Part shown: positions 2,725 to 28,994 of the stretch, one piece after another
Numbering within the stretch: the stretch's first letter is position 1
How the letters are laid out: each line of letters begins with the position of its first letter
DNA from: a virus
Virus record (IMG/VR): IMGVR_UViG_3300005264_000072
Location: 1 to 28,994 of that record
DNA: 28,994 nt
Direction: 5' to 3' (one strand)
The notes under the pieces: generated by a model
Databases searched by the model: none
What the model saw: only the letters and a program-made list of their open reading frames with translations
What the model was told of the DNA's origin: nothing
Position numbers and translations under genes: made by a program

Positions 2725-3333
2725 TTAATTACCTCCCTGTAAAATACTATTTATCGCACTATTTTGGCTTGTAAAGTTGCCCCCTTGACCCCATGGACTC
2801 TGTTGTGTACTTGAAGGTGCATTGTTCCATGAAGGTGTTACTTGTTGAATCGGTGCTTGTTGGATTGGTGCTTGTTGGATTGGTACTTGTTGAATTGGTG
2901 CTTGTTGGATTGGTGCTTGTTGAATCGGTGCTTGTTGAATCGGTACTTGTTGGATTGGTGCTTGTTGAATCGGTACTTGTTGAATTGGTGCTTGTTGAAT
3001 CGGTACTTGTTGTGATTGTTGGCCTTGTGTTGCCATAATATAATGATCTATTATTAATTGTTGAATATATTTTCTTAAATCTCCCGATAACGGATGTGCA
3101 ATATCATAATACTCGGGAGAGCCATTTTTATCATAACTTTTCTGTGGAAATGTTGCAAATAGACCATTTCGTCCATTCACTATTTTTAGATCCTTAACTA
3201 CAAATATATCATTAATTGTTATATCGGCAAAACTAACTACTTTACTCTGTGTATTCTTTACTAATTTAATTGCTATCTGTGTTATTGCCAAACCATTATA
3301 ATTTTGACTGTTATTTACTTGATATTTTAACAT
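2725..3333 (-). CDS. SpoVG-family protein with PIQQ-repeat tail
   Basis: 202 residues. Residues about 16-98 match SpoVG, a small nucleic-acid-binding regulator of Bacillota: a [16 protein letters not shown] strand followed by [10 protein letters not shown] and a helix. The C-terminal half is a low-complexity tail of about 11 tandem [AV]PIQQ units, then a Ser/Asn/Gly-rich end. The ATG at 3333 is preferred over the GTG at 3342 because AAGGAG lies 8 bases before 3333. It sits in the replication half between unknown genes and a nucleotide kinase, and no separate SSB gene is visible. A role as an SSB-like or regulatory nucleic-acid binder is possible but is inference. Confidence 0.85.
2841..3012 (-). 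repeat. 15-bp tandem repeat coding for [AV]PIQQ
   Basis: About 11 in-frame copies of a 15-base unit. Copies differ mainly at one position (GCA against GTA, giving Ala or Val) and at a synonymous Ile codon. The mosaic of variants suggests expansion and contraction by slippage or recombination. It lies in the C-terminal half of the SpoVG-like gene. Confidence 0.95.
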
Positions 3334-3759: not shown

Positions 3760-4005
3760 CTATTTTCTCTGTTTTCTAATAGACTCCTCTACTAAAAAGT
3801 CATTTACTATTGTCATTAGTGGTGGTGCATAAATATCTGTACCTATTTTTTGGATCAGGATCTCTTTAAATCTACTAAAGTTTAGATCTTTAACTTTTTG
3901 AAACATTATATTAGTTATCTCTTCATCCTTATAATTCCAGCTTGCACCATTAACGAAATTCTTACTCATCATCTCGCCTACTCTGTATAATTCTTTTTTT
4001 GTCAT
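3760..4005 (-). CDS. Hypothetical protein (81 aa)
   Basis: First gene after the promoter at 4033-4061. The correct start is the ATG at 4005 (MTKKELYRVG), which follows GGAGGAGGAGAC. An upstream in-frame ATG at 4044 lies inside the promoter and cannot be on the transcript. The protein is basic at both ends (MTKKEL, SIRKQRK) and predicted helical, which would suit a small DNA- or protein-binding factor, but no family is recognised. Expression early in infection is likely from its promoter-proximal place. Confidence 0.75.
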   Translation of the reverse strand: MTKKELYRVGEMMSKNFVNGASWNYKDEEITNIMFQKVKDLNFSRFKEILIQKIGTDIYAPPLMTIVNDFLVEESIRKQRK

Positions 4006-4079: not shown

Positions 4080-6260
4080 TTACTCGTCACTATATTCCCC
4101 ATTATTTATCGCCTCTCTAAGAGAATCTATACTATCATAATCATCTGATTTACTCCAATATTCACCTACTTCAAAACCGGCTGAGAAATGTACATTAAAA
4201 TAAGGGAAGTCTTCCATTATCTCCTTAATCTTATACATTGTCTCTAATTCGTCGGTATCAAAAATAATTTCATCATGTACCAAATTCACTACCTCGATAT
4301 TTGTATAATTATTATTGTCTAAATACTCATAAATTTCTATTATCTTTACTTTTTGCATTTCCGCACAAGAGCCTTGTATTATTGTATTAAGTGCTTTACG
4401 AGGATCCTTCCTTAAATCACGTGGATTGCCTAACCATGTATGTGCAATATTATTCTTTCTAACATATTTTTGAATTGTTTTATCATATTCTTTTATTTTA
4501 GGAAACTGTTCAAAGTACTTTTTCTTTGTCTCTGCTGCTTCTTTTAACATGTGTAAATTTTCTGATCGTAAATAGTATGCAATTGCTGATAATTTATCTT
4601 TAGGAGCCAAGGACTTGATTTCATACAGTAATTCCTCAGTTACCTCTACATATGGGGGCAATTCATAAACTTCTTTAGGCATACATTTTACCATTGCTTT
4701 TGCTCCAGTCCTAAATTTCTTGAAGTTCACTTTACTTCCTAAAGCCTCCATGAAACTTATGTTCCCTAAACCATACACTACTCCAAAGTTGTTAGTTTTA
4801 CCTTTCTTTCTTAGGGAGACAGCTTCATCAGTTTCTTGTGCCTCAATGTACTCATAGTCTTTTTCAAACATTAATGAGGCAGTTGCAGAATGAATATCTT
4901 TACCTTCCCCAATAAATTGCAATAGTTTAGGGTCCTCGCTTAACATTGCTAGGTATCTGTACTCTTGTTGATCATAATCCAACTTCACAAATTGTTTATT
5001 TGCTCTAAATAGTCCCCTTATATCACAATTATACATTGTATCATCATTTAAAGGGAGTTCTGCGTCTCCTTTAGGCATATTTTGCATATTTGGTGCAGAG
5101 GAACTGAATCTCCCAGTTGCCGTCCCCATTATATTGAAAGAGGCATGTATCTTATTGTTGTTCTGTATATACGTGTCTAAGTTTTCTATATAAGTACTAA
5201 GGTATTTGGTTGCCTTGTCATAATATTTTGCCATCTTAATGAACTCTAATAACTCAGGCTTATCTTCTTCCAGTAGGAGAGCATTTTTAACATCTTTATT
5301 GAAATTGTGTTTCCCTGTTTTAGTGGAAATCCAATCATATGCAAGATCACTATACTTTTGATCAATAAATTCCCCTATTTTTGCTCTTTGTGTAATTTTA
5401 ACGCCTTCTGGAAGAAAGTCACTTATTTTTTTGCCTACATAATTAATTACTTGGTTTAAACGTTGTCGCTCTTCTGCTATCTTATCTTTGTCTACTCTAA
5501 TACCTGTTCGCTCAATTCTCCATACATAAGGCAATACTTTTTGATTTAAATCATAACTTCTTTTTCTTGTTGACCACTCTGACCCTACGGCATTACCCCC
5601 TAACTCCCTTATTCTTTCGATGTAGACATTTTTAAGTTGTATCTGGACAATAACATCATTAATCGCATAAGACTCCATATCATTCCTGTAAGCACCATAA
5701 ACATCATAATAAGATACTTCTGAAATCTTCTTATAGCCTAACTTCTTTTTAGTCGCCTCTATAAGATCTTTCATTGTGGTCTTATGGTTGTTCACTGTTC
5801 CGCTTAGATGAGCCTTAATTTGTCCATTAAGCCCTCTATAGGTGAAGCTCTCTAAATGCTCTGGGAATACGAAATAAGCAAGAATAAATAGATCCTTAAC
5901 TTTTACTGATAACATATTGCAACCAATATTGGCCAATATATGCATATCGAATTTTGCATTAGAAATCCATATCTCTGTATTCATTTTTTTAAAAGTATCA
6001 ATTAACCAAACGATGTCGGTCCTATAATTATCATGCATGTCTTCATGGGCACTTAAAACATATATTTCATCCTCAGAGACGAATGCAGCTGTTAACATGA
6101 AGGGCACATTATTTTCTGACTTTTTAATGTATCTGGTAACTGTTCCTTCTTGTGCATGTACCTCTGGATCAAACCTTGTTTCTGTATCTAACTCTACTTG
6201 TCTGGGTTGGTGTTGTTCTACTAATTTGATGTATTCTCCTATCTCTCTAATTATTTTCAT
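4080..6260 (-). CDS. Family A DNA polymerase with 3'-5' exonuclease
   Basis: 726 residues, close to T7 gp5 in size and order. Exonuclease motifs: D25-T-E27 (Exo I), N101-AKF-D105 (Exo II) and Y198-AIN-D202 (Exo III). Polymerase motifs: TGRFSSSAPNMQNMP (382-396), motif A with D428 (KLDYDQQEYR), motif B R484...K488...F492G...Y496G and motif C HDE at 662-664. All catalytic residues are present, so it should be an active replicative enzyme with proofreading. F492 sits at the O-helix site where T7 has Tyr, which in the family favours discrimination against dideoxynucleotides. It starts at 6260 behind GAGGAGG and is expressed alone from the promoter at 6290-6318. Confidence 0.97.
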   Translation of the reverse strand: MKIIREIGEYIKLVEQHQPRQVELDTETRFDPEVHAQEGTVTRYIKKSENNVPFMLTAAFVSEDEIYVLSAHEDMHDNYRTDIVWLIDTFKKMNTEIWISNAKFDMHILANIGCNMLSVKVKDLFILAYFVFPEHLESFTYRGLNGQIKAHLSGTVNNHKTTMKDLIEATKKKLGYKKISEVSYYDVYGAYRNDMESYAINDVIVQIQLKNVYIERIRELGGNAVGSEWSTRKRSYDLNQKVLPYVWRIERTGIRVDKDKIAEERQRLNQVINYVGKKISDFLPEGVKITQRAKIGEFIDQKYSDLAYDWISTKTGKHNFNKDVKNALLLEEDKPELLEFIKMAKYYDKATKYLSTYIENLDTYIQNNNKIHASFNIMGTATGRFSSSAPNMQNMPKGDAELPLNDDTMYNCDIRGLFRANKQFVKLDYDQQEYRYLAMLSEDPKLLQFIGEGKDIHSATASLMFEKDYEYIEAQETDEAVSLRKKGKTNNFGVVYGLGNISFMEALGSKVNFKKFRTGAKAMVKCMPKEVYELPPYVEVTEELLYEIKSLAPKDKLSAIAYYLRSENLHMLKEAAETKKKYFEQFPKIKEYDKTIQKYVRKNNIAHTWLGNPRDLRKDPRKALNTIIQGSCAEMQKVKIIEIYEYLDNNNYTNIEVVNLVHDEIIFDTDELETMYKIKEIMEDFPYFNVHFSAGFEVGEYWSKSDDYDSIDSLREAINNGEYSDE

Positions 6261-6289
6261 ATTATTGCCTCCTCTTCTTCTTATATACT

Positions 6290-6318
6290 ATATTACCACA
6301 AACACTATTTACTGTCAA
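6290..6318 (-). promoter_or_regulatory. Leftward promoter for DNA polymerase
   Basis: On the minus strand, TTGACA (6318-6313), a 17-base spacer and TAATAT (6295-6290), with TGG before the -10 box (extended -10). TTTAGGGG precedes the -35 box, as at 1444. It faces away from the rightward promoter at 6364, leaving 45 bases between the two -35 boxes. Confidence 0.85.
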
Positions 6319-6363
6319 CCCCTAAAACAAAGTTTTTTCGTCTCCCTCTTTAAAACACAAAAC

Positions 6364-6392
6364 TTGACAACAATTTTACCTTATGTTATAAT
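6364..6392 (+). promoter_or_regulatory. Rightward early promoter, copy 1
   Basis: TTGACA (6364-6369), a 17-base spacer and TATAAT (6387-6392), with an extended -10 (TGTTATAAT). The consensus match is perfect. The region 6383-6414 is repeated exactly at 6707-6738. Confidence 0.9.
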
Positions 6393-6414
6393 TAGGGTAC
6401 ACAATAAGTTCTTA
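6383..6414 (+). repeat. 32-bp direct repeat over promoter start site (copy 1)
   Basis: Identical to 6707-6738, 324 bases downstream. It spans the -10 box, the likely start site and the first transcribed bases (GGGTACACAATAAG). Conservation beyond the promoter boxes suggests an operator or a conserved 5' RNA end. Confidence 0.9.
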
Positions 6415-6687
6415 ACTATAAACAAATTAGTACTAGTCTATAACCTTTTACTTTTAAAATAGATAGTCTATAATCTTATAGTTTAGTCAATAGTCTAAGT
6501 ATATAGTCTATAATATCTCTTTAAGTATACATATATGTATTACTAAGGAGATATTTTTCTGCTTTAAAAGAGAGAAAAAGCATTCTGATGTTTACAGAGG
6601 CGACTACATACTCCTCTTCCTTTTAAATACCAATTCCAGTTTCTTCTATTGTAACCACAACATCATTACCCTTTTAAAAACTTAAAT

Positions 6688-6716
6688 TTGACAAGCTTTT
6701 TTAATGATGTTATAAT
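6688..6716 (+). promoter_or_regulatory. Rightward early promoter, copy 2
   Basis: TTGACA (6688-6693), a 17-base spacer and TATAAT (6711-6716), with TGT before the -10. It shares 32 identical bases with copy 1 around the -10 and the start site, while the spacers differ. It reads into the small gene at 6888 and the methyltransferase. Confidence 0.9.
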
Positions 6717-6738
6717 TAGGGTACACAATAAGTTCTTA
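6707..6738 (+). repeat. 32-bp direct repeat over promoter start site (copy 2)
   Basis: Second copy of the repeat at 6383-6414. Confidence 0.9.
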
Positions 6739-6887
6739 TACTATTTTAAAAGTAAATAAACATTAATAATTAGTCTATAAGCTAATATAATAGACTATAG
6801 ACAATAGTAATAGACAATAGACTAATATAATAGGTAATAGTCTAAATATATACTAATAATTAATTTCTTTTCAAAGGGAGGCGACAG

Positions 6888-7052
6888 ATGGATTACTCAA
6901 ATTTAACAAGAAATCAATTGATCGGCATGTTATTTAGTGCAGACAATAAGATTGACAAATTATTGGATGAAATTGATGGACTATATTCGGAGGCACAATA
7001 TCTTAATGATTTAATTGATAGTTTGGAGGAGGATAACAATGAGCAAAAATAG
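6888..7052 (+). CDS. Small acidic helical protein (54 aa)
   Basis: Starts with ATG at 6888 behind GGGAGGCGAC and ends with TAG at 7052, overlapping the methyltransferase start by 14 bases. The sequence is acidic and looks like one long amphipathic helix (IDKLLDEIDGLY...YLNDLIDSLEED). It is the first gene after the tandem rightward promoters, so it should be made very early. No family is recognised. Such small acidic early proteins often bind host factors, but nothing here shows that directly. Confidence 0.7.
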   Translation: MDYSNLTRNQLIGMLFSADNKIDKLLDEIDGLYSEAQYLNDLIDSLEEDNNEQK

Positions 7053-7956
7053 GCATTTAGCTAAGGCAAAGGCAAAAAAGAATGATGAATTTTATACAAT
7101 GTATTCAGATATAGAAAAGGAATTAATCCATTATAAAGATCATTTTAAAGGCAAGGTGATATATTGTAATTGTGATGATCCGAAAATGAGTAACTTTTAT
7201 AAATACTTCATAGATAACTTTAATAGTTTAGGCATAAAGAAAGTCGTCTCTACTTATTATAGTTCCACTGATGCAGTCTTTAAAACAGAATATGACGGTA
7301 CAATGATGACAAGGAGTCAACTAGCCCAGAATGGTGATTTTAGAAGCCAGGAGGCGATAGACATATTAGTAAGTGCAGACATTGTCATTACTAACCCACC
7401 ATTCTCTCTCTTTAGAGAATATGTTGATCAATTAATAAAGTACAAGAAGAATTTTCTTATACTTGGCAACAATAATGCGATAACATATAAGGATGTCTTC
7501 TCTTTAATAAAGAGCAATAAGATTTGGCTTGGTTATCATGCAAATAAAACTATGGAATTTAGATTAAGTGAAAAATATTCTAAATGGGATAGAATAGATG
7601 AATATGGGTATAAATTTGGGAAAGTACCAACAATTTCATGGTTCACAAATTTAGAACACAGTAAACGAAACGAAAAAATAATATCCTATAAGGAATATTC
7701 AGAAGTAGAATTTCCGAAATATGACAATTACGATGCAATAAATATAGATAAAGTAAAAGATATACCTAAAGATTACTTTGGTATTATGGGTGTTCCAATT
7801 ACTTTTCTAACTAAACATAACCCAGAGCAATTTGAAATCTTAGGAATAGATAGATATATAGAGGATAACCCTAATTATGGCAAAAGATTTAAAATAAACA
7901 ATAAAGAAAAATATGCACGTATACTTATTCAAAGAAGAGGAGACAAATTAATTTGA
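7039..7956 (+). CDS. EcoRI-type adenine-specific DNA methyltransferase
   Basis: 305 residues. It fits the EcoRI-methylase family of N6-adenine methyltransferases: NPPF at 119-122 is the catalytic motif IV, NCDDPKMSNFYKYF (44-57) is characteristic of the family, and ILGNNN follows at about 141-146. It would transfer methyl from S-adenosylmethionine to adenine in a short DNA motif. No endonuclease gene is nearby, so it acts as an orphan enzyme, probably protecting phage DNA from a host restriction system or marking it. The ATG at 7039 is chosen because GGAGGA precedes it; a TTG at 7015 in the same frame lies upstream of that site. Its stop overlaps the -35 box of the next promoter. Confidence 0.88.
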   Translation: MSKNRHLAKAKAKKNDEFYTMYSDIEKELIHYKDHFKGKVIYCNCDDPKMSNFYKYFIDNFNSLGIKKVVSTYYSSTDAVFKTEYDGTMMTRSQLAQNGDFRSQEAIDILVSADIVITNPPFSLFREYVDQLIKYKKNFLILGNNNAITYKDVFSLIKSNKIWLGYHANKTMEFRLSEKYSKWDRIDEYGYKFGKVPTISWFTNLEHSKRNEKIISYKEYSEVEFPKYDNYDAINIDKVKDIPKDYFGIMGVPITFLTKHNPEQFEILGIDRYIEDNPNYGKRFKINNKEKYARILIQRRGDKLI

Positions 7957-22132: not shown

Positions 22133-23362
22133 ATGAAAATAGATGCAAATGTAAATATACACAATCGTTTTGATATTCATATAGATAATATTGAGACAGG
22201 AGAACATAGAGAGGTAGTGGGATATAATATTGTTTTAGACCAGATGTATGATAGATTATGCGCGTTGAGTGATTATTTTAATTATATATCTTTTGGTAGA
22301 GGTACAGGAACACCTACGCCTGATAGAACTGCACTATTTGATAGGATTGGGAGCAAAAGTGTAGAAAATATAGAGAAGATTTATTCACTCCCAGATTCTT
22401 CATGGAAACAGAAAATAGTATTAGCGCCAGAAGAATATGTTGGGGAGACGATTACAGAAGTAGGCATCTCTTACAACTCTTCTGAGGGCTATTTAGTTAC
22501 ACATGCAATATTGAAAGATTCAGAGGGGCAACCAATAGCTATAACTAAAACAGACACTGATGTCGTTACCATATATGCAACTGTATTTTTTTCATTAGGG
22601 TCCATAAACCCAGATGTAGAGTTTATTAATGTAAGTTATAATATATTTTACGATCGAAGGAATAAATTATTGAACTATCTAATGGAGGAAGGATATCAAT
22701 TAAATGGTAGTAGTTTTGATTTACAAGAAGCTAAGGCAGGTCTCGTTATGGGGGGTACTGAAACATTTGACTGGACTGCAGATGTTCAAAATAAAAAAAT
22801 AACTTCTGGTATTAGAAGATTCGGTATAGATGAGGGGAATTGTAATGCAAAATTTATAATTTACAAAGATACTTTACGAATAAATTTACCTTTATCTGGT
22901 GTATTGGAGGGGCAAGCATATCAAGATGTTCTTGTTGGTACAGGTGACGAAGCAAATACAACATTTGAATTACCTTCTCATAATATAAGAGAGTCAACCT
23001 TAGATATTAAGATTGACGGAGTTAGCGTATCTAATTACGTAAGCAAACAAAAACCTTTTTATGTGGAGCTTGAATTACCTCCTTATAGTACAGTCCCAAG
23101 AGGACGTAGTGTTGCCAGCAATTTGGATGGATCAATTGTGGCTATTGCAACAGACTCTTCGTCTCCTTATGTTTCAGTGCTTGAACTAAAAGACACATGG
23201 AAGGCGAGACCTACGCCACCCAATCTTGCAACCAAAGGATATAGTGTTGCATTAAGTTCAGATGGTACCGTATTAGCCGTAGGTTCATATACTGTTGCAC
23301 CATATGTTAAAGTGTACGATTGGAATGGTACAAATTGGCTGAGGGATATAGTGTTGCATTAA
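22133..23362 (+). CDS. Tail fibre / receptor-binding protein, N-terminal part (frame broken)
   Basis: 409 residues as read. The first about 160 (DIHIDNIETGEHREVVGYNIVLDQMYD...) resemble N-terminal attachment modules of phage tail fibres. Around residue 300 onward begins a beta-propeller-like repeat region (GYSVALSSDGTVLAVGSY...PYVKVYDWNGTNW). At 23338/23339 the frame breaks: the expected TTGGACTGA reads TTGGCTGA, one base short, so the frame ends after LRDIVLH at 23362. The rest of the protein continues one frame away (23320-23853). Intact, it would be about 573 residues. Confidence 0.75.
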   Translation: MKIDANVNIHNRFDIHIDNIETGEHREVVGYNIVLDQMYDRLCALSDYFNYISFGRGTGTPTPDRTALFDRIGSKSVENIEKIYSLPDSSWKQKIVLAPEEYVGETITEVGISYNSSEGYLVTHAILKDSEGQPIAITKTDTDVVTIYATVFFSLGSINPDVEFINVSYNIFYDRRNKLLNYLMEEGYQLNGSSFDLQEAKAGLVMGGTETFDWTADVQNKKITSGIRRFGIDEGNCNAKFIIYKDTLRINLPLSGVLEGQAYQDVLVGTGDEANTTFELPSHNIRESTLDIKIDGVSVSNYVSKQKPFYVELELPPYSTVPRGRSVASNLDGSIVAIATDSSSPYVSVLELKDTWKARPTPPNLATKGYSVALSSDGTVLAVGSYTVAPYVKVYDWNGTNWLRDIVLH

Positions 23363-23582
23363 GTTCAGATGGTACCGTATTAGCCATAGGTTTATATAAT
23401 CCTGCACCATATGTTAAAGTGTACGATTGGAATGGTACAAATTGGACTGAAAGACCTACGCCACCCAATCTTGCAACTAAAGGATATAGTGTTGCATTAA
23501 GTTCAGATGGTACCGTATTAGCCGTAGGTTCATATACTGTTGCACCATATGTTAAAGTGTACGATTGGAATGGTACAAATTG
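23237..23582 (+). repeat. Three near-identical 102-bp propeller repeats
   Basis: Copies at 23237-23338, 23344-23445 and 23482-23582 are almost identical at the DNA level; a diverged copy starts at 23617. Linkers beginning CCACCCAATCTTGCAAC separate most copies, but the first and second are joined by only five bases, where the frame is lost. This indicates recent recombination between copies. Confidence 0.93.
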
Positions 23583-23853
23583 TGAAAGAGCAACGCCACC
23601 CAATCTTGCAACCAACGGATATAGTGCTGCATTAAGTAGTAATGGAGACAAGATATTTATTGGTTCATACAATTATTCACCATTTTTTAAGGCATATAGC
23701 GCCAGCTCTCAAACAGAATATGAAATAACATTTGATTCTCCTCCTGCGGATGGTCTTCCTATAACAGCAGACTATACAGTAGATGGTATACACAAAACAG
23801 ATCAGTATGTTGTAGATGTATCATGTTCTATCCAATTTGGTGAAGGAGTTTAA
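23320..23853 (+). CDS. Tail fibre, C-terminal beta-propeller part (out of frame)
   Basis: Continues the propeller repeats of the preceding gene in another frame. The ATG at 23320 has no ribosome site, so independent translation is doubtful. It holds two near-identical repeats (KGYSVALSSDGTVLA..., PYVKVYDWNGTN) joined by a TERPTPPNLAT linker, a diverged fifth repeat (NGYSAALSSNGDKIFIGSYN), and a C-terminal beta domain ending VVDVSCSIQFGEGV. Read as the second half of one fibre split by a one-base deletion, a phase-variable switch or an assembly error. Confidence 0.7.
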   Translation: MEWYKLAEGYSVALSSDGTVLAIGLYNPAPYVKVYDWNGTNWTERPTPPNLATKGYSVALSSDGTVLAVGSYTVAPYVKVYDWNGTNCERATPPNLATNGYSAALSSNGDKIFIGSYNYSPFFKAYSASSQTEYEITFDSPPADGLPITADYTVDGIHKTDQYVVDVSCSIQFGEGV

Positions 23854-25228: not shown

Positions 25229-26201
25229 TAAGAATATAAGTAAGCACATTGCAATATTTATATTATTTGTATTAATCACTCTTTCATTTCTTATATACTC
25301 AACAACATATGAGATTACATCAGAGGAAACGATACATCTAAATAGATTAGCAGCATTAGAATTAATAGAAGAGGACTACATCCTCTCTGTTTTAAATGAA
25401 AATTATTGTAAGGCACAGATCCAGGCAAAAGGTGTGGCAGATCGGATCAAGGCAAACAGTTATGATATTAATGGACTTAAGACCTTGGCACCAAATTCGG
25501 AGATACTTACAGACCTGAATACTTTTATAGAAGGCAAGTTTTTGAATATTGATAGTGATAGTAATGATATGTTTGTTGCAGTACACAATACAAATGCACC
25601 GACTAATGCAGAGACGAAGGTACCTTTAAAAGACAGTTTTAGTTTTGTTTTAGTAGACAAAAGTTTAGATTGCTCAGTAGCAACAGGCGCAAAAATAAGG
25701 GATTGGGAGACAGAAATTAGTGCACATGCAAATAAGGAGCTGGCACAACATACAATCGTCTCTCTTTTAAATAAACAAAATGTTCCTCTGTTCTGGCAGT
25801 TTTTACCAAGTGATATTGATACATCAAAAGTAGTGTCTGTTTCAGATATTATAGAGTTATATCATTTATATGGAATAAAAGGAATTGACGCATTTGAATT
25901 TTTGTCTCCAGTATATTTAAATGCCAGAGGGGATTTATGGGGAGAAGAATACGTGAACAACATAGGCATACGTAATGATGCATATATGCTTATAGTGGTC
26001 CAGGGATTTAAACTATCAGATGCAATCACAAGTAATTCTGTTCACAGAGAGTATCTTCAACAAATAAAACACTTTAGAGGGGATGTTATAGATAATTATA
26101 ATGTTTATCATCGTGGTAAACAATTATTATTAGTGGCACAGACAGTGATATTCTTATTGTCATTTATAGGGTTGTCAATATTACAAAAAGATTTGAGATG
26201 A
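25221..26201 (+). CDS. Membrane protein with N- and C-terminal anchors (326 aa)
   Basis: Starts behind AAGGAGGC. A first hydrophobic segment (about 9-26, IAIFILFVLITLSFLIY) follows a short basic N-terminus, and a second lies at the end (LLLVAQTVIFLLSFIGLSIL, about 302-321). The 275 residues between are soluble, with one proline/asparagine-rich loop and few cysteines. This topology places the middle domain outside the membrane. The gene lies between the hub-like gene and the holin candidates. Possible roles include host-envelope interference (superinfection exclusion) or lysis control. No family recognised. Confidence 0.7.
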   Translation: MISKNISKHIAIFILFVLITLSFLIYSTTYEITSEETIHLNRLAALELIEEDYILSVLNENYCKAQIQAKGVADRIKANSYDINGLKTLAPNSEILTDLNTFIEGKFLNIDSDSNDMFVAVHNTNAPTNAETKVPLKDSFSFVLVDKSLDCSVATGAKIRDWETEISAHANKELAQHTIVSLLNKQNVPLFWQFLPSDIDTSKVVSVSDIIELYHLYGIKGIDAFEFLSPVYLNARGDLWGEEYVNNIGIRNDAYMLIVVQGFKLSDAITSNSVHREYLQQIKHFRGDVIDNYNVYHRGKQLLLVAQTVIFLLSFIGLSILQKDLR

Positions 26202-28223: not shown

Positions 28224-28994
28224 TATATCAACCCCTCTTCTGTTATACTCCTATAATTATCTAACTGTACTGTAGACTTGACTTCTTCCTCTGTTTCCTC
28301 TATATATTTCTCCCATCCTAATGGTCCATAAGTTACACCATCTAATTGAGTAAAACTTCTACGTTTTGTATCAAAAGATAATTGAACATAACCTAAATCT
28401 GCCGTCTCTCTTGCTTTTAAGATTCTTAGTATTCCTTCACAATTATTATATTCATCAATTGATTTAACAAATTCATCATACGCTCTTTCTATTGCTAAAA
28501 CATTGTCTGCAATATTGAATATGTCTCCTGATCCCTTAATATCTTTAAGAGTAAGTCGTTCTCCTCTATCCTTGTCTTTATTTGGATGCACAATTAATAA
28601 AACAGTTACTTTATATAGTTCTGCAAAATCTTTAAGTGTTTGTACAAAATCTTGTTGGTCTTTATATTGGCTTGCAGCGGTTGTTTTTAGTACACTCATA
28701 AGATTATCTATAACAAAATATTTAATTCCTTTCTTTATTAGTTTTACCATTGCCTCAATAACATCATTATGATGTCCACCAAGACGTTTTCTACTATACA
28801 CATATAATTTACCTTCTAACCATTCATCGATGTATTTCTGATATTTCTTTTGTGGTATTGATATATACCTTTTATTCTTTTTAACAGTCTTTAGATACCT
28901 TTCATCTTGTAAACTCTGAGTATATACCCATTCCTGGAACATATCTTTTGATAATTCACCATTAAATATAAATGTTTTAGTGTTTTGTCGTATT
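28223..28994 (-). CDS. Primase-helicase, C-terminal helicase part (continues from position 104)
   Basis: This is the helicase domain of the gene that starts at 1174. Bases 28891-28994 duplicate 1-104, so the reading frame runs through the join without interruption; the part unique to this end is about the last 222 residues. Seen: a Walker-B-like strand (YFVIDNL, near residue 449) and a conserved histidine motif (VHPNK, near residue 493), both typical of T7 gp4/DnaB-type hexameric helicases. An ATG near 28942 is only an internal methionine and not a real start. The TAA stop overlaps the ATG of the metallopeptidase gene (TAATG), which suggests translational coupling. Confidence 0.95.
   Translation of the reverse strand, partial: IRQNTKTFIFNGELSKDMFQEWVYTQSLQDERYLKTVKKNKRYISIPQKKYQKYIDEWLEGKLYVYSRKRLGGHHNDVIEAMVKLIKKGIKYFVIDNLMSVLKTTAASQYKDQQDFVQTLKDFAELYKVTVLLIVHPNKDKDRGERLTLKDIKGSGDIFNIADNVLAIERAYDEFVKSIDEYNNCEGILRILKARETADLGYVQLSFDTKRRSFTQLDGVTYGPLGWEKYIEETEEEVKSTVQLDNYRSITEEGLI
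28891..28994. repeat. Terminal redundancy, right copy
   Basis: Identical to positions 1-104; see the left copy. Removing one copy leaves a circle of 28,890 bp. Confidence 0.9.

Follow-up and report, generated by a model that had tools for sequence, protein, structure and literature searches.

A duplicated promoter and repeat-array unit in the only divergent control region of a small phage of lytic type, a candidate replication origin

The window analysed here is the whole 28,994-nucleotide IMG/VR record. Its two ends share an exact 104-bp repeat (1-104 = 28891-28994) and the primase-helicase gene, cut by one end of the record, continues with identical residues at the opposite end, so the ends close into a circle and the record is a complete circular phage genome with a unit of 28,890 bp. 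The genes form two blocks with a single point of divergence, at 6261-6887, and a point of convergence near 26.8 kb. All genes to the left of this gap are on the minus strand (polA, two small ORFs, a SpoVG-like protein, guanylate kinase, amidase, the primase-helicase and further small ORFs) and all genes to its right are on the plus strand (a 54-aa ORF, an EcoRI-type methylase, small ORFs, an exonuclease, then terminase, head, tail and lysis genes). The gap accounts for 627 of the 1468 non-coding bp of the genome, the next largest gap being 159 bp; this small phage of lytic type has no other divergent control region. The replisome genes are of the T7 type (PolA plus primase-helicase). No integrase, repressor, RNA polymerase, helicase loader or initiator was recognised among the ORFs scanned, and no phage single-subunit RNA polymerase was found among those scanned against PHROGs; the statement in the preliminary description that the known genes include no phage regulator agrees with the ORF scans, which turned up nothing repressor-like. 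The features of the region are as follows.

4080-6260, minus strand: family A DNA polymerase gene (polA), first leftward gene
6261-6887, no strand: divergent intergenic control region (gap analysis, skew)
6290-6318, minus strand: predicted extended -10 promoter, TTGACA-17-TAATAT, reading leftward into the polA (early) operon (consensus match only)
6344-6522, plus strand: unit 1, first copy of the promoter and its repeat array (alignment to unit 2)
6364-6392, plus strand: predicted promoter P1, TTGACA-17-TATAAT, 12/12 consensus, extended -10 TG (consensus match)
6383-6414, plus strand: 32-bp segment, -10 and initially transcribed region, identical to 6707-6738 (direct comparison)
6434-6523, plus strand: array 1, 20-mers starting at 6434, 6464, 6484 and 6504 (motif and period analysis)
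6447-6462, no strand: left arm of a perfect 16-bp inverted repeat (repeat search)
6512-6555, plus strand: imperfect palindrome or RNA hairpin that ends unit 1 and holds the 14-bp palindrome (repeat search, folding)
6669-6870, plus strand: unit 2, second copy of the promoter and its repeat array (alignment to unit 1)
6688-6716, plus strand: predicted promoter P2, TTGACA-17-TATAAT, 12/12 consensus, extended -10 TG (consensus match)
6707-6738, plus strand: 32-bp segment identical to 6383-6414 (direct comparison)
6741-6756, no strand: right arm of the 16-bp inverted repeat (repeat search)
6771-6850, plus strand: array 2, tandem 20-mers starting at 6771, 6791, 6811 and 6831, candidate iterons and DNA-unwinding element (period, stability)
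6888-7052, plus strand: 54-aa ORF, first rightward gene, matching no family (ORF list and family scans)

Several features elsewhere in the genome were also recorded. The EcoRI-type adenine methylase (7039-7956; PF13651, E 1.7e-111) occurs in a genome with two GAATTC sites (431, 12789) against 9.4 expected, at least two being present in 99 of 100 shuffles. The SpoVG-domain protein (2725-3333) carries a Q/P/I repeat tail encoded by a 15-bp tandem repeat (2841-3012), and a tail-fibre-like gene (22133-23853) contains internal repeats of 107/138 bp and is split into two frames that overlap (22133-23362 and 23320-23853), for which frameshift, phase variation or assembly error are options.

P1 and P2, both of host type and 324 bp apart, are the sole 12/12 promoter matches in the circular genome, whereas random genomes of equal dinucleotide content held a mean of 0.11 and at most one (n = 100). 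That two rightward promoters share 32 identical bases although their spacers differ, as described earlier, was borne out exactly, with only 10 of the 17 spacer positions in agreement. Two more rightward extended -10 promoter matches, at 7953 and 9662, end in TATGTTATACT, resembling TATGTTATAAT of P1, and one of the two precedes the terminase genes.

The likeness of the two promoter regions extends into the DNA behind them. Units 1 and 2 align with a score of 106 against a best of 42 in 1000 shuffles, and the array part alone scores 37 against a shuffle maximum of 34. Judged by this alignment, promoter and array are one unit of about 180-200 bp that was duplicated whole rather than separate features, and the resulting control cassette is, on the sequence statistics, real, non-random and duplicated. 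Unit 1 is followed by the hairpin at its end and then by about 130 bp without a gene, while behind unit 2 comes the 54-aa ORF with its ribosome-binding site. Behind unit 1, where a relic of that gene was looked for, no similarity to it was found (score 11; shuffles mean 12). The 32 identical bases beside diverged spacers, together with the survival of the array in both units, point to probable selection.

The arrays are built on the motif TAGWCTA, a 7-bp palindrome that is its own reverse complement save for the centre base. All eight copies in the genome (6434, 6464, 6491, 6504, 6771, 6791, 6818 and 6838) fall within 6434-6844, against a mean of 0.41 and a maximum of three in 2000 dinucleotide shuffles of the 627-bp gap, and the densest 420-bp cluster among 195 comparison loci (L008-L202, 2.4 Mb, obtained by protein similarity or accession) held four. 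The sites are confined to the DNA that follows P1 and P2, roughly +35 to +125 relative to each. Some ten short repeats in both orientations had been reported previously; the repeats themselves stand, as these eight copies, and the description of both orientations is ambiguous, since the motif is self-complementary apart from its centre base. When read in 20-bp units the arrays run in a single orientation, with the eight 20-mers giving the consensus TAGTCTATAnnCTAAnnnTA. In array 2 the identity at the 20-bp period is 0.615, a value reached by none of 2000 shuffles at that period; allowing for a choice of the best period between 5 and 45, the figure is 0.0025. Array 1 is composed of the same 20-bp units in a less regular arrangement (p 0.011 for the period alone; 0.158, not significant, after the search over periods). 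Ordered direct repeats of the kind expected at an iteron origin are thus present in array 2 and only in part in array 1.

The perfect 16-bp inverted repeat described as flanking some 280 bases is likewise confirmed, with arms 278 bp apart and a length that none of 60 shuffles reached (shuffle maximum 12). It does not belong to the duplicated unit, its arms being at differing places in the two copies of the alignment. The 14-bp palindrome, also described before, is present, but 283 of 2000 shuffles have one as well and it is not beyond chance. The P1 leader (6399-6687) folds better than shuffled sequences (z -2.68), while the P2 leader barely does so (z -1.29). Hairpins at 25370-25386 and 6597-6618, the latter in the P1 leader, share an AGAGG...ACTACAT...CCTCT pattern. 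The control region contains no Rfam family or tRNA, and no DnaA box (TTATNCACA, one mismatch allowed) was found in 6261-6887; the genome as a whole has 39 such boxes against 54 expected and is not enriched.

In duplex stability the arrays are the two lowest windows genome-wide at 100, 150 and 200 bp, the least stable 100-bp window of the genome beginning at 6764; lowest stability would be expected of the largest AT-rich gap between genes regardless of function. P1 and P2 both point into these arrays, so that a predicted promoter is aimed at a candidate unwinding element, as in origins of the T4 type. Estimated nearest-neighbour RNA:DNA energies fall in the 10th-19th genome percentile for 60-100 bp windows starting at 6764 or 6790 and are unfavourable for the P1 leader; hybrid energetics give an R-loop no special preference. 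The cumulative GC-skew minimum (6681) and the AT-skew minimum (6747) both lie at the sole divergent point of the gene map. GC skew had been proposed as a check of the origin, and its minimum does fall in the region; it cannot separate replication from transcription, because gene direction switches at the same place. On the + strand the leader between P1 and P2 retains the bias of the left arm (28 G against 48 C, p 0.029; the numbers are small), although it is transcribed rightward if P1 fires, which places the skew switch at P2 rather than P1. A purely transcriptional cause does not predict this bias, with the same caution as to the small numbers.

No DNA similarity to the control region was found in 50,697 phage records, and IMG/VR contained neither close relatives by PolA or exonuclease nor a match to the 25-bp promoter/start sequence. 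Among 175 + 27 loci (27 window proteins as queries) no locus shared polA, the control region and the first rightward genes. Relatives by TerL, capsid or exonuclease share scattered head-and-packaging genes, the exonuclease, and a few weak amidase and single-gene matches; PolA or primase is shared in the records that were obtained for PolA or primase. The head genes show a mosaic pattern, in which TerL is 66% identical to one group and MCP 73% to a different one, and the early region has no counterpart in the phage records and IMG/VR scans made. A search for three TAGTCTATAA with gaps of 10-40 bp matched two IMG/VR contigs, which are one phage, and a looser motif pattern matched 9 IMG/VR contigs and 51 genome contigs. 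The nine IMG/VR records, which are fragments, include four with PolA (two being the same phage) and three with a primase-helicase (phrog_239, one weakly). Given that polA is found in more than 25% of known dsDNA phages according to PMC6302109, the presence of PolA among array-bearing records is no evidence of an association.

Contigs L203 and L204 from IMG/VR, found by searching for the motif itself, also have a dense TAGWCTA-type array. Its 100 bp rank lowest in stability within the 9 kb read, and it lies immediately before the genes for a T7-type replisome, in a cluster that includes primase-helicase and PolA. They differ in an 11/33-bp period with about 23 copies, no duplicated promoter unit was seen in them, and the phage is unrelated; we give the likeness little weight because the looser search finds such arrays widely. 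In L204 (1819-2070) and L263 (4811-5050) the 11-bp AT-rich repeat, in about 23 copies, lies upstream of the primase-helicase/PolA cluster, and this phage also has a Gp2.5-like protein and a ribonucleotide reductase. A literature search on phage 'tandem promoters' and 'iterons' found no paper, and one on divergent intergenic regions with iterons found none on such a duplicated unit, judged by title and abstract start.

The primary origin of T7 has two tandem promoters and an AT-rich stretch. The present region resembles it in having two tandem promoters and AT-rich DNA ahead of a small early gene, with a PolA and primase-helicase replisome, and differs in that no phage RNA polymerase was recognised, the promoters are of host type, lie 324 bp from one another and are each followed by an array. 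T4 oriF and oriG, as outlined in PMC3016281, consist of a promoter and an AT-rich, easily unwound element of about 100 bp downstream, and the active origins of T4 are found close to where transcription diverges and the skew shifts. Shared here are predicted promoters ahead of an AT-rich, easily unwound stretch and a position of this kind in a genome that is circularly permuted. In contrast to T4, the promoters are host-type consensus promoters and not MotA middle promoters, the replisome is of the T7 and not the T4 type, the repeats are ordered 20-bp repeats in a unit that occurs twice, and an R-loop is hypothetical. Iteron origins (lambda ori, iteron plasmids and T4 oriE, whose iterons have an unclear role) likewise have short ordered repeats beside AT-rich DNA, whereas here no initiator gene was recognised, the repeats are outside any initiator gene and they are themselves the AT-rich DNA.

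Taken together, the likeliest single reading, which we hold tentatively and at slightly less than even confidence, is that the control region doubles as a replication origin primed by host transcription. Host RNA polymerase would initiate at P1 and P2 and the transcript would enter the unstable array, where RNA that is held or cut could prime the phage family A polymerase, with the phage primase-helicase loading on the displaced strand; the array may additionally bind a small phage protein, and expression of the rightward genes, from the 54-aa ORF and the EcoRI-type methylase onward, would also come from these transcripts. The T7 replisome is reported to restart in vitro from transcripts of T7 or E. 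coli RNA polymerase (PMC5997990) and ColE1 and lambda provide other forms of transcription-dependent opening (PMC5043065); by analogy, the replisome type would fit priming from a transcript. Of the origin with iterons that had been suggested before, the 20-bp direct repeats, the least stable DNA, the skew minimum, the divergence point and the T7-type replisome speak in favour. Against an origin stand the lack of a recognised initiator or helicase loader among the ORFs scanned, where small ORFs of no family remain, the unremarkable hybrid energies, DnaA boxes that are not enriched, a skew that follows gene direction as well, a low stability that any AT-rich gap would show, and the lack of any relative with conserved repeats in the collections scanned.

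The main rival, doubtful in our view and nonetheless a serious contender, is that the palindromic motifs are operators for a dimeric phage regulator, serving as repressor sites or roadblocks by which the timing of the very strong P1 and P2 is set, with no origin function. Operators explain the palindromic core equally well, and they would also suit eight sites confined to the region behind the two promoters and a 32-bp identity that spans the -10 and start, a frequent repressor location. Such operators require neither low duplex stability nor a 20-bp direct repeat, and no repressor-like protein appeared among the ORFs scanned, though small proteins without an assigned family remain; the AlphaFold2 model of the 81-aa protein at 3760 (mean pLDDT 57.9) was too poor for use. 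We consider it unlikely that the region is an ordinary doubled early promoter in which a strong promoter was duplicated and AT-rich slippage made functionless repeats, the identity of the start regions being due to gene conversion or to a 5' leader with a role in RNA stability. The short-period signals (7 and 20) are what slippage would leave, the 51 matching genome contigs indicate that such arrays also occur in bacterial contigs, and a methylase in the first gene cluster would presumably need strong early expression, but diverged spacers directly beside the 32 identical bases and an array kept in both units argue otherwise. Some plasmid partition sites consist of direct repeats of about 20 bp next to a promoter, and the region could by that likeness be a centromere-like or packaging site bound by a segregation or terminase protein; this is very improbable, as no partition ATPase or tubulin-like protein was matched among the ORFs scanned, the small terminase gene is 3 kb away and the region bears no packaging-start mark.

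Many lytic phages carry PolA and a Gp4-like helicase, as described in PMC6302109. The region studied here is a compact candidate origin with an internal control, the same cassette occurring twice in one genome. To our knowledge, the start of replication in PolA/Gp4-like phages without an RNA polymerase of their own has been little studied. In its fullest form, which is possible but rather less probable than not, the origin reading would have a replisome of the T7 type, in a phage with no RNA polymerase of its own, start at host-transcribed, duplicated promoter-iteron units whose repeats serve as both unwinding element and binding array, and the cassette would couple rightward gene expression to the initiation of replication.
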